Shown: one piece after another, positions 1,743-4,929 of the stretch
Layout of the letters: each line of letters starts with the position of its first letter
Numbering within the stretch: position 1 is the first letter of the stretch
NCBI GenBank assembly: GCA_019420045.1
Contig: JAHZHY010000298.1
Coordinates: forward strand, 227 to 18,396
Length of the DNA: 18,170 nt
Source of the DNA: Clostridiales bacterium
Lineage (GTDB): Bacteria; Bacillota; Clostridia; Oscillospirales; Butyricicoccaceae
Reading direction: 5' to 3'
The notes under the pieces: model-generated
Told to the model about the DNA's origin: nothing
The model's input: the letters and a program-made list of their open reading frames with translations, nothing else
Database searches by the model: none
Program-made: the position numbers and the translations under genes

Positions 1743-1789
1743 TTACTATATATACAGTTTGAAACGATTATAATCACTATATATAGTAT
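1743..1789 (+). promoter_or_regulatory. NrdR box pair overlapping the nrdD promoter
   Basis: Two sites match the 16-bp NrdR box (consensus acaCwAtATaTwGtgt). Box 1 (1743-1758) has core CTATATATAC, one mismatch. Box 2 (1774-1789) has core CTATATATAG, a perfect match. They are 15 bp apart, so the centres lie 31 bp (three helical turns) apart, the known arrangement for the dATP/ATP-sensing repressor NrdR. A promoter fits inside: TTGAAA (1759-1764), 17 bp, TATAGT (1782-1787), so box 2 covers the -10 element. TATAAT at 1769-1774 is an alternative -10. NrdR itself is not encoded in this window. Confidence 0.85.
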
Positions 1790-1894: not shown

Positions 1895-4234
1895 ATGGCT
1901 GCTTCCAAACGGCTGCCGGTGCGGGTGAGCGCCGCTTCCTGGGCCGGGCCGGTATCCATCCGCAAGCGCAGCGGGGATGTGGTGCCCTTTGATCCCAGCA
2001 AGATCCGGGAGGCCATCCGCAAAGCCAATGTGTCCGTCCGGGAGGAATCCCTTCCCTTTGCCGCCCTGGAGGAGCTGACCCGCCGGGTCGCCCGCTCCAT
2101 TCCCCAAGGCCAGATCCCGGGAGTGGAACAGGTACAGGATCTGGTGGAGGAAACCCTTATCAAAGCCGGTTACGCCAAAACCGCCAAAGCCTATATTCTC
2201 TATCGGGCAGAACACGCCAAGATCCGTCAGTCGGAAACCGACCTGATGGAGATCTATAAAGAACTGACCTTCTCCTATGCCGCCGACGCCGACATCAAGC
2301 GGGAAAACGCCAACATCGACGCCGATACCGCCATGGGAACCATGTTGAAATACGGCTCCGAAGGGGCCAAATATTTTGTGGACAACTATATCCTGCCCCG
2401 GGATGTGGCAGCCGCGCACATCAACGGCGACATTCACATCCACGACAAGGATTTCTATATGCTCACCGAGACCTGCTGCCAGATCGATCTGCTGAAGCTG
2501 TTCAAAAACGGCTTCTCCACCGGTCACGGTTATCTGCGGGAACCGGCCGGCATTCAAAGTTACTCTGCTCTGGGCTGTATCGCCATCCAGGCCAACCAAA
2601 ACGAAATGCACGGCGGCCAGTCGGTGCCCAACTTTGACTATGCCATGGCCCCCGGTGTGGCCAAAACTTTCCGCAAAGAATATTTCAAGGCTCTGGGGCA
2701 GTACCTCAACGCCTTCTGTTCCCTGGAATACGGTCAGGGACAGGCTCTGACCCAGAATGCCAAAGCCCAGGTAGGGGAGGATGTGTCCATGGGCCAGCCT
2801 CAAGTCTACGGCACCCGGCTGGTGCCCTGGCTGGCGCAGCAGACCTTGCCCCAGGGCGGCACCCTTACCGCTGCGCAGGCCCAGAAGGCCCATGACATGG
2901 CCACCCAAACCGCCATGGCGGAAACCGACCGGGCCACCTATCAGGCTATGGAGGCCCTGGTGCACAACCTGAACACCATGAATTCCCGGGCCGGAGCCCA
3001 GGTTCCCTTCAGCTCGGTGAACTACGGCACTGACACCTCTCCCGAAGGGCGGATGGTGATCCGCAATCTGCTTCTGGCCACCGATGCCGGTCTGGGCAAT
3101 GGGGAGACTCCCATTTTCCCGGTACAGATCTTCAAAGTAAAAGAGGGAATCAACTATAACTCCCAGGACCCCAACTACGATCTGTTCCAGCTGGCCATCC
3201 GCACATCGGCCAAGCGGTTGTTCCCCAACTTCAGCTTCCTGGACGCCCCCTTTAACCTGCAATACTACAAAGAAGGGGACTACAACAGCGAAGTGGCCTA
3301 CATGGGCTGCCGCACCCGGGTGATGGGCAATGTGCACGACCCGGAGCGGGAAATCACCTGTGGCCGGGGCAACCTGAGCTTTACTTCCATCAATCTGCCT
3401 CGTCTGGGCATCGAAGCCCACGGGGATCTGGACCGCTTCTACGAGATGCTGGACGAGAAGATCGACCTGGTCATCCGCCAGCTGCTCCACCGCTTCAAGA
3501 TCCAGGCCGCCAAAAAGAGCCGCAATTACCCCTTCCTCATGGGACAGGGCGTGTGGATCGACAGCGAAAAGCTGGATGTGGACGAGCCTGTGGGGGAAAT
3601 CCTCAAACACGGCACTCTCAGCGTGGGCTTTATCGGCCTGGCCGAAACCCTGGTGGCCCTCACCGGCAAACACCATGGCCAGAGCCCGGAAAGCCAGAAG
3701 CTGGGCCTGGAGATCATCGGCCATATGCGCCGCCGGATGGATGAGGAATCCCAAAAGACCGGCCTGAACTTCACCCTGCTGGCCACTCCGGCCGAAGGAC
3801 TGTCCGGCCGCTTCCTCCGCATCGATCAAAAGATCTATGGCAAGCTTCCGGGAATCACCGACCGGGATTATTACACCAACTCCTTCCACATCCCTGTGTA
3901 TTTCCCCATCCGGGCCTTTGACAAAATCCGGCTGGAAGCTCCTTATCATGCCCTGACCAACGCCGGCCACATCAGCTATGTGGAGCTGGACGGGGATGTA
4001 TGCAAAAACCCCAAGGCCTTCGAAGCGGTGATCCGCTGCATGAAGGAAGCCGGTGTGGGCTATGGCTCGGTGAACCATCCGGTAGACCGGGACCCGGTGT
4101 GCGGCTATACCGGCGTCATCGATGAGGTTTGTCCCCGCTGCGGCCGCCGGGAAGGAGAAGGCGTGCCCATCGAAAAACTCCGTGAACTGCGGAAGAAATT
4201 CCCCAGTATGCCGAACTTCTACGGTTTGGAATAA
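1895..4234 (+). CDS. nrdD: Anaerobic (class III) ribonucleoside-triphosphate reductase, large part lacking the glycyl-radical segment
   Basis: Reduces ribonucleoside triphosphates to deoxyribonucleotides in the absence of oxygen, supplying DNA precursors. The 779 residues begin with an ATP-cone (about 20-110, starting SIRKRSGDVVPFD), which senses dATP/ATP. The glycyl-radical-type barrel follows, including CIAIQANQNEMHGGQSVPNF and YMGCRTRV, where C472 aligns with the thiyl-radical cysteine of E. coli and T4 NrdD. A zinc site lies near the end (DPVCGYTG then CPRCGR; C736, C746, C749). In typical NrdD the zinc site is followed by RRxxGYL with the radical glycine; here the protein instead ends FPSMPNFYGLE and stops. 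The missing segment is the next gene. The ATG start has AAAGGAGG 5 nt upstream. NrdR boxes precede the gene. First gene of the nrdD / radical-domain / nrdG unit. Confidence 0.95.
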   Translation: MAASKRLPVRVSAASWAGPVSIRKRSGDVVPFDPSKIREAIRKANVSVREESLPFAALEELTRRVARSIPQGQIPGVEQVQDLVEETLIKAGYAKTAKAYILYRAEHAKIRQSETDLMEIYKELTFSYAADADIKRENANIDADTAMGTMLKYGSEGAKYFVDNYILPRDVAAAHINGDIHIHDKDFYMLTETCCQIDLLKLFKNGFSTGHGYLREPAGIQSYSALGCIAIQANQNEMHGGQSVPNFDYAMAPGVAKTFRKEYFKALGQYLNAFCSLEYGQGQALTQNAKAQVGEDVSMGQPQVYGTRLVPWLAQQTLPQGGTLTAAQAQKAHDMATQTAMAETDRATYQAMEALVHNLNTMNSRAGAQVPFSSVNYGTDTSPEGRMVIRNLLLATDAGLGNGETPIFPVQIFKVKEGINYNSQDPNYDLFQLAIRTSAKRLFPNFSFLDAPFNLQYYKEGDYNSEVAYMGCRTRVMGNVHDPEREITCGRGNLSFTSINLPRLGIEAHGDLDRFYEMLDEKIDLVIRQLLHRFKIQAAKKSRNYPFLMGQGVWIDSEKLDVDEPVGEILKHGTLSVGFIGLAETLVALTGKHHGQSPESQKLGLEIIGHMRRRMDEESQKTGLNFTLLATPAEGLSGRFLRIDQKIYGKLPGITDRDYYTNSFHIPVYFPIRAFDKIRLEAPYHALTNAGHISYVELDGDVCKNPKAFEAVIRCMKEAGVGYGSVNHPVDRDPVCGYTGVIDEVCPRCGRREGEGVPIEKLRELRKKFPSMPNFYGLE

Positions 4235-4277
4235 ATAAATAATAAATTGCACTTTGTATAGAAAGGAAGCATGCACC

Positions 4278-4436
4278 ATGACCGAAGGAAAGCTGACACA
4301 GAAAGAGGCCTGCGTGGGCCAGGGCGTGAAATTCGAGCGGATCCGCCGGATCACCGGTTATCTGGTAGGCACCACCGACCGGTTCAACAACGCCAAGCGG
4401 GCAGAGGAAAAGGATCGGATCAAGCATGGTGTCTAA
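4278..4436 (+). CDS. Separate glycyl-radical domain of the anaerobic ribonucleotide reductase (52 aa)
   Basis: A 52-residue protein equivalent to the C-terminal glycyl-radical segment of NrdD. The stretch FERIRRITGYL, then NNAKRAEEKDRIKH, aligns with the E. coli NrdD end (RRVCGYL ... EEVKRRVKH), making G27 the predicted radical glycine. The ATG at 4278 is preceded by GAAAGGAAG (4261-4269); an in-frame TTG at 4254 lies upstream of that site and is unlikely. The gene starts 43 nt after the nrdD stop, in a different reading frame, and the nrdD frame holds a second stop (TAG, 4259-4261) in the gap. It overlaps nrdG by 11 nt. By inference the peptide docks on NrdD and is activated by NrdG, as free glycyl-radical subunits such as GrcA do for pyruvate formate-lyase. 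A decayed or misassembled full-length gene is the less likely alternative. Confidence 0.85.
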   Translation: MTEGKLTQKEACVGQGVKFERIRRITGYLVGTTDRFNNAKRAEEKDRIKHGV

Positions 4437-4929
4437 GGAGCTGCGGCTCAGCGGCATTGTGGAAGAATCCATTGTGGACGGGGAGGGCATCCGCTTTGTG
4501 GTCTTCACCCAAGGCTGCCCCCACCACTGTCCCGGCTGCCACAATCCCCAGACCCATCCCTTTGAAGGGGGATTTTTGGGGGATATTCCCGATCTGCTGC
4601 GGCAAATGGAGGAAAATCCCCTGCTGCAAGGTCTGACCATCTCCGGCGGAGAGCCCTTCTGCCAGCCGGAAGCCCTTCTCCCACTGGCCCGTGGAGCCAG
4701 GGAGCAGGGGAAGGATGTGACCATTTATTCAGGCTACACCCTGGAACAGCTTCTGGAAATGGCCAAAGACCGTCCGGCCATTGGGGATCTGCTCTACGCC
4801 TGTGACATTCTGGTGGACGGCCCCTATGTGGAAGCGCTGCGGGACCTGACTCTGACCTTCCGAGGCAGCTCCAACCAGCGTATTCTGGTTTTAAAAGAGG
4901 TTTTGCCTCCCCAACAAAAAAAGTCCTGA
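4426..4929 (+). CDS. nrdG: Anaerobic ribonucleotide reductase activating protein (radical SAM)
   Basis: Radical SAM enzyme that uses a [4Fe-4S] cluster and S-adenosylmethionine to abstract a hydrogen from the NrdD glycine and create the stable glycyl radical. The 167-residue protein has the cluster motif CPHHCPGC (C31, C35, C38, spacing Cx3Cx2C) and the GGEP motif (73-76) that contacts SAM; its length is normal for NrdG. The ATG at 4426 lies inside the preceding glycyl-radical gene and overlaps it by 11 nt, which suggests translational coupling and roughly matched synthesis of activase and substrate domain. The 3' end runs into a terminator stem that contains the stop codon. Confidence 0.95.
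   Translation: MVSKELRLSGIVEESIVDGEGIRFVVFTQGCPHHCPGCHNPQTHPFEGGFLGDIPDLLRQMEENPLLQGLTISGGEPFCQPEALLPLARGAREQGKDVTIYSGYTLEQLLEMAKDRPAIGDLLYACDILVDGPYVEALRDLTLTFRGSSNQRILVLKEVLPPQQKKS

Follow-up and report, generated by a model that had tools for sequence, protein, structure and literature searches.

A class III ribonucleotide reductase of gut anaerobes with its predicted radical glycine encoded by a separate small gene

Can an anaerobic ribonucleotide reductase (RNR) work with its radical glycine on a different polypeptide from its active site? This question is raised by an 18,170-nucleotide (nt) stretch of DNA from a Clostridiales bacterium (assembly GCA_019420045.1, contig JAHZHY010000298.1; here called the window), in which the nrdD gene for the large chain of a class III RNR ends without a glycyl-radical motif. 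Its stop codon is followed by a gap of 43 nt and then by an ATG at position 4278, which opens a 52-amino-acid (aa) open reading frame (ORF) in a different frame; this ORF overlaps the activase gene nrdG by 11 nt, and 10 nt separate the end of an AAGGA ribosome-binding site from its ATG (Table 1). An initial annotation, made from the letters alone, had read this ORF as a separate gene for the glycyl segment, and ORFs and profile matches confirmed the layout. We conclude that the locus very probably encodes an obligate two-chain class III RNR that takes its radical glycine from the small peptide in trans: with no radical glycine in the large chain, the peptide would be indispensable. At the level of sequence, distribution, conservation and register strongly back the supply in trans, which that annotation had also proposed.

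The large chain matches Pfam NRDD (562 positions) over positions 1-531 with 624 bits, and the 52-aa ORF matches positions 524-562. For NCBIfam NF005497 (746 positions) the ranges are 4-711 (1047 bits, cut-off 764) and 702-744. P. copri NrdD (8p23), the best solved relative, is also matched in adjacent parts, by the large chain up to residue 705 and by the peptide over 706-738. Barrel and ATP-cone (residues 21-108) of the large chain are homologous to NrdD, and PF02867 (Ribonuc_red_lgC, the class I/II barrel) was absent from its Pfam matches at E<=1. C472 in MGCR provides the predicted finger-loop active-site cysteine, and nrdG exceeds the TIGR02491 cut-off for the activase. What the large chain lacks of a class III RNR is the C-terminal radical glycine: K767 stands there, and the glycine, G27 of RRITGYL, is on the 52-aa protein. 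In sequence position C472, C736, C746, C749 and G27 lie where they had first been placed. MGC[RA] was found in 115 of 118 truncated chains and in all 39 fused chains, and the three-cysteine zinc pattern in 112 of 118 truncated versus 12 of 39 fused chains. The 52-aa ORF gave no match to the pyruvate formate-lyase (PFL) C-terminus or Gly_radical; its only Pfam match (E<=1) was NRDD, and its only NCBIfam matches were NrdD models.

In the proposed mechanism the large chain would house the ATP-cone, nucleotide sites, barrel, radical cysteine and zinc site, and the peptide would put its RRITGYL loop into the barrel beside C472. NrdG would install the radical on G27, from where it would move to C472 as in one-chain NrdD. 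A likely benefit would be that a peptide whose glycine had been destroyed by oxygen could be exchanged without remaking the large chain; that such replaceability is a real advantage after oxygen damage is plausible, with the scales about level.

A decaying remnant, or one gene broken by an assembly error, could look the same as long as only a single window is viewed. The close but distinct sister genome G319 (G-numbers denote genomes in our samples, L-numbers the sequence loci retrieved) encodes a peptide identical to that of the window, and its stretch L174 aligns with the nrdD operon at 93.4% (90-96% over the window). Between the two genomes 9 codons of the 52-aa ORF are changed synonymously and none non-synonymously; nrdD has 125 synonymous and 16 non-synonymous codon differences. 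Of the 43 gap bases 38 are the same, ribosome site included. The small gene is not a product of chance, because G319 keeps the arrangement, the gap and the ribosome site and shows synonymous changes only. The annotation would have been overturned had the parts joined in one frame on resequencing or had only this copy been split beside a degraded small gene; G319 stays split, and many relatives are split with an intact small gene. Start codons and ribosome sites at 100 distinct split loci, and two isolates in which the split NrdD is the sole RNR detected, also speak against a pseudogene or assembly error, an explanation that G319 rules out and whose probability we regard as negligible.

Split NrdD is common in many gut anaerobes. 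Among 8000 small proteins scored (candidates of about 29-91 aa) at least 7990 matched at E<=1e-3; some of these could stem from intact nrdD genes cut off on short contigs, which is a point in favour of the remnant explanation, and a few small database proteins bear the name ribonucleoside-triphosphate reductase only. A scan of species genomes confirmed at least 582 stretches, of which the best 80 were used as loci, a selection that favours query-like sequences; in these best 80 the frame holding the motif was no longer than 363 codons at 72 loci and 779-819 codons long at 8, and the taxa were Clostridia, Bacilli, Desulfovibrio, Fibrobacter, Succinivibrio and others. When 194 NrdD ORFs were sorted (loci not deduplicated), 128 were truncated and had the motif no more than 1.5 kb further downstream, 42 were fused, and 24 were called truncated with no such motif following. 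This last group is made up of NrdDs at contig edges, paralogs, distant NrdDs that escaped the motif, and chains whose peptide is unlinked. A NrdG-like ORF lay within 1.2 kb at 85 of the 98 split loci with enough sequence. The peptide columns G(-9), F(-4), N(+14), K(+17), E(+20), R(+24) and H(+27) were invariant at 100 of 100 loci; conservation of the R..GYL columns is set by the choice of data, as the regular expression requires those letters.

Genome samples for the orders of G022 and G003 and the classes of G022 and G001 were requested at 90% completeness. In the order of G022, 53 of 107 genomes matched, 28 in a frame of at least 538 codons (8 of these also with a stand-alone copy) and 25 with a stand-alone motif only. 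A truncated large chain was shown in 23 of the 25; G292 is outside the 23, and in G334 the apparent stand-alone motif belongs to a fused chain cut by the contig edge. The class of G022 gave 39 matches in 118 genomes (36 in a frame of at least 616), and the order of G003, a Desulfovibrio metagenome-assembled genome (MAG), gave 19 in 81, every one stand-alone. The class of G001 gave 31 in 100 (long frame in 23), with one in-frame TGA per match in G595 and G587, where TGA is perhaps read as an amino acid. In the family of G319, which is that of the window, 51 of 61 genomes matched, 16 in a long frame (at least 391) and 35 stand-alone only; a truncated chain was checked in 8 of these 35, and G497 resembles the spare type described below.

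Gap length between the two parts ranged from -8 to 336 nt over the 100 distinct split loci (median 41), and its remainder modulo 3 was 1, 2 and 0 at 46, 29 and 25 of them, so that all three frames occur. A single chain might still be made by ribosomal frameshifting or by bypass over the gap, for which the shortness of the gap in the window and the shared frame at some loci can be cited. Such recoding would have to cope with the whole range of gaps and frames, and with several stops at some loci, although the small ORF has a ribosome site of its own. In G395, moreover, no peptide is found on the contig of the large chain, and the sole strong peptide match is on another contig. We rejected recoding on the gap variation and consider it very improbable.

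The statement that NrdD stops after the zinc site had to be amended. The chain does lack the glycyl motif, but it extends about 30 residues beyond the site and includes a relic of the pre-glycine segment: GVPIEKLREL in its tail aligns ungapped to the pre-glycine GVPFERIRRI of intact NrdD, and K767 falls in the place of the radical glycine. For a register test of the tails after CPxCG, 118 truncated chains minus L009, L062, L296, L091, L107 and L295 yielded 106 distinct tails. The pre-glycine segment scored 1.87 in the true register, compared with -0.18 for the next best and -1.04 ± 0.07 for shuffles; the Gly loop beyond it gave no signal (-1.22 vs. -1.30 shuffled). Likeness in the pre-glycine segment is expected by common descent; what matters is that it breaks off at the glycine. 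The residue at the Gly register was K in 44 tails, R in 21, L in 20, M in 5, G in 4, and others in the rest. Longer relics were tested on nine chains with 500 shuffles each. L146 has a full-length divergent tail with KGY that no shuffle equalled, and L092, L019 and L278 were significant (2, 5 and 9 shuffles as good); L086, L028 and L279 were not (52, 69 and 119), and L062 and L009, cut at the wrong position, were uninformative. The peptide duplicates the pre-glycine segment (GEGV.FERIRR), so that chain and peptide overlap.

Relic tails are still found in 106 distinct sequences, which may mean that the segment has a role, and the Gly kept in four of them would suit a peptide that is chiefly a regulator or decoy, the radical sitting elsewhere, for instance on the relic tail or on another glycyl protein. 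However, 102 of the 106 tails have no Gly at the register, and the peptides retain the entire motif and the conserved NrdD C-terminus. We therefore give a regulator or decoy little chance.

As to origin, a second, stand-alone copy of the glycyl tail would most likely have taken over, after which the cis tail decayed. In a FastTree tree of 157 NrdD cores (tails excluded) the labels split and fused changed 9 times, at least 6 of these changes being forced by starred branches, compared with a shuffled mean of 34.8; the label for truncated chains here also takes in L112 (in-frame stop), L116 and the paralogs L107, L295 and L296. An all-fused clade of 22 falls outside the split clades. The pattern can be explained by repeated splits, by recombination between two copies that re-fused them, or by transfer.

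An AlphaFold2 (AF2) model was made for L291, with large chain, natural gap and peptide as one row, so that a read-through linker ties both parts; its alignment had 45 rows, 23 with the peptide and no fused NrdD among them. Mean predicted local distance difference test (pLDDT) was 81.9. With low-confidence stretches omitted and only range ends given, model residues 90-820 aligned to residues 85-735 of P. copri NrdD 8p2s_B (625 residues, 3.2 A) and 124-804 to 26-587 of T4 NrdD 1h7b (521 residues, 2.0 A). The end offset of 85 would place model Gly796 at chain residue 711 of 8p2s_B; residue 711 is the radical glycine of P. copri NrdD according to the excerpt of PMC11226230. The cis relic was predicted as a helix (736-745).

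Dependence on the split enzyme was assessed in 45 genomes. A PF02867 search (E<=1e-3) for the class I/II RNR large subunit found no match in 29, and 25 of these have split NrdD, one of them (G331) with a second, intact NrdD. Most of these are MAGs or of unstated type, which makes absence weak evidence. Two are isolates, Succinivibrio dextrinosolvens DSM 3072 (G014) and Massiliimalia timonensis (G017), in which neither a class I/II RNR nor an intact NrdD was detected, and the relic tail of G014 has no Gly at the register. A second NrdD-like chain without zinc site, glycyl tail and MGC accompanies the split one at L107, L295 and L296 (genomes G023, G289 and G325) and is a possible pseudoenzyme.

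Several observations weigh against the obligate two-chain reading or restrict it. Gly at the register is retained in 4 of the 106 distinct tails, that of G017 (L086) among them. G319 also has a class II-type RNR match, so that the species may not depend on the split enzyme. The Shine-Dalgarno consensus match at the 100 distinct split loci (mean 5.94 nt vs. 3.83 shuffled) counts in favour of the reading, but the test picks the best ATG and is thereby biased towards the observed value. Fused forms, e.g. L084/L085, sit within split clades, and for this reason the direction of change is unsettled. The Gly loop of the L291 model (794-805) has a pLDDT below 50, and with low-confidence stretches included 8p23_A aligns at 8.9 A over 663 residues. 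Because of this loop, the omitted stretches and the linker, the predicted docking of the peptide in the barrel is suggestive only.

The split might also be neutral, an accident of gene structure that serves no repair, with peptide and chain bound for life. The peptide gene mostly adjoins nrdD and nrdG, as such an accident would have it, and the neighbourhood of spare-type loci offered no oxygen-linked context: flavodiiron genes stood at 2 and Crp-type regulators at 3 of 28 loci, compared with 0 of 77 in the comparison set, and four of the five hits were query proteins, so this candidate link was dropped. Exchangeability is indicated by three sets of observations, namely extra unlinked peptides beside one large chain, phage peptides without a large chain, and spare-type proteins in genomes with intact NrdD. 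A neutral accident is accordingly the less probable account in our view, yet one that deserves real weight.

The first set comes from the order of G003. Among its 19 matching genomes G003 itself has two large chains, and the other 18 have one each. Peptide copies numbered three each in G411 and G416, four in G391 (one weak), two in G423 and two in G395 (one weak). Several extra copies lie in stretches judged by eye to be prophage-like, with a terminase near L184 and an integrase near L191.

A scan of viral contigs confirmed 292 stretches, of which 80 were used as loci. At 79 of these the motif was stand-alone, and at 73 of the 79 the surrounding sequence (up to 20 kb) contained no NrdD large chain; the one call of a fused motif, at L231, was a chance match, and L197 had no motif match. 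When 48 of the 80 virus records were searched over their full length, 44 had no large chain and 4 had one, though records may be fragments. PHROGs searches with one or two ORFs per locus, at 10 virus contigs and 2 prophage stretches (12 loci in all), found a packaging, lysis or integration protein at 7 (L236, L264, L219, L196, L262, L184 and L191); L231 and L248 gave no named function, and L193, L194 and L209 gave DNA/RNA-related or methyltransferase matches. At L248 the peptide gene directly precedes what by eye is a putative cell-wall hydrolase. The virus contigs L208, L258, L270, L242 and L221 carry a truncated nrdD of their own, with the peptide 2 kb behind, ahead or on the opposite strand. 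In the cultured Eggerthella phage EL753P1 (L303, about 2300-2610) nrdD ends in a relic-like tail, and an unannotated glycyl peptide about 0.5 kb downstream is readable in two different frames of the record.

In the family of G319, 12 of the 16 genomes with intact NrdD also have an unlinked stand-alone copy (frame 94-137). Those copies in intact-NrdD genomes that were read are 88-100 aa long (the spare type, about 95 aa) and share the N-terminal consensus ...EI.AYI......P...I....I..DGD.VD..Y...VPFERIRRITGYL. This N-terminal part had no family match (two proteins vs. Pfam, four vs. NCBIfam). AF2 predicts it as strand-helix-strand-strand with pLDDT 77-85, the glycyl tail being of low confidence, and against the PDB the best match of the fold had E 0.22, with none at E<=0.001. 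At L175 a spare-type gene lies 0.2 kb behind an intact nrdD. Similar proteins occur on the virus contigs L245, L262 and L264, and one in the fecal 'Bacteriophage sp.' MT838827.1 (L305, 3968-4294) resembles the bacterial type. A flavodiiron (ODP) gene is near the spare-type gene at L061 and L190, and a Crp-type regulator at L061, L176 and L342, numbers too small to carry weight. Behaviour as a spare part fits the phage copies and the proteins of about 95 aa in genomes with intact NrdD better than the window peptide. Whether one widespread, mobile peptide family serves class III RNR in three ways, as obligate subunit, as spare for intact NrdD or as phage-borne part for the host enzyme, seems to us evenly balanced. 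If it does, phage peptides would plug a fresh radical into the host enzyme and sustain deoxynucleoside triphosphate synthesis under infection or oxygen stress, which suggests a phage trick of carrying about 50 codons in place of a whole reductase.

One-chain NrdD (P. copri 8p23/8p2s, phage T4 1h7a, S. thermophilus 9d3x) has the same ATP-cone, barrel, MGC cysteine, zinc site, RRITGYL...H type of glycyl tail and NrdG activase, whereas the window has a gene of its own for the tail, a decayed cis tail and a zinc site of three cysteines, as in the minority of fused chains counted above. The likeness to GrcA that was first drawn holds in part. GrcA/YfiD of E. coli and Y06I of T4 are, in the excerpt of PMC8683613, small autonomous glycyl-radical proteins that repeat the pre-glycine segment left on the large chain (YfiD repeats the strand retained on cleaved PFL), and they too include one from a phage. 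The window peptide, in contrast, serves NrdD, not PFL, and is obligate here; filing it in the GrcA family was rejected, as it has no PFL homology. The same excerpt names YfiD and T4 Y06I as the only validated spare parts, both for PFL, and holds others possible for further glycyl-radical enzymes; the proteins described here are strong sequence-level candidates for such parts. Split class II RNR NrdJa/NrdJb likewise spreads a catalytic subunit over two consecutive genes (excerpts of PMC4520616, PMC9669993 and PMC4009431), but is B12-dependent, and its split-off part is no radical-bearing glycyl tail. Phage RNR genes in pieces, most commonly nrdD (6 cases), are due mostly to introns, inteins and homing endonucleases, with the cause in phiAS4 unknown, and no stand-alone glycyl peptide figures among them in the excerpt of PMC3653736. 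The open-licence literature yielded no description of split NrdD, of phage peptides that lack a large chain or of a spare-type protein, subscription journals (mostly) and preprints lying outside it, so that a prior description is possible. No stand-alone NrdD glycyl peptide appears in the excerpts of PMC11528403, PMC9669993, PMC9531940, PMC11226230, PMC4390871, PMC8683613, PMC12288474, PMC3653736, PMC12662201, PMC3019208, PMC12338860 and PMC4009431.

If the two-chain reading is right, a hallmark of class III RNR, radical glycine and active site in one chain, fails in a large group of gut anaerobes, and a separable part of 50 residues would open radical installation, exchange and oxygen repair to direct tests. 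In annotation, NrdD chains of this kind should not be called truncated genes, nor the tiny ORF a fragment.

Table 1. Features of the nrdD locus, in positions of the window.
Feature	Position	Strand	Basis
Putative tandem NrdR boxes ahead of nrdD: two ACTATATATA sites whose starts are 31 bp apart	1745..1787	+	Motif search
nrdD, encoding the large chain of 779 aa with ATP-cone and catalytic barrel, without glycyl-radical motif	1895..4234	+	ORF and profile matches
C472 in MGCR, predicted thiyl-radical cysteine	3308..3310	+	Motif position
Zinc-site cysteines C736, C746, C749 (three, not four)	4100..4141	+	Motif position
Relic of cis glycyl tail, residues 751-779; pre-glycine segment present, Gly loop gone, K767 at Gly register	4145..4231	+	Tail alignment
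Ribosome-binding site AAGGA of the 52-aa gene	4263..4267	+	Sequence; same in sister genome G319
Glycyl-radical peptide gene (52 aa), predicted radical Gly G27, codon 4356-4358	4278..4436	+	ORF, profiles, conservation
nrdG, radical S-adenosylmethionine (SAM) activase	4426..4929	+	TIGR02491, 139.6 bits vs. cut-off 126.1

Upstream of nrdD the window also holds a tandem pair of ACTATATATA sites, a pattern matched once there and in none of 200 shuffles. We take ACTATATATA to be the NrdR motif, and the two sites are probably NrdR boxes.

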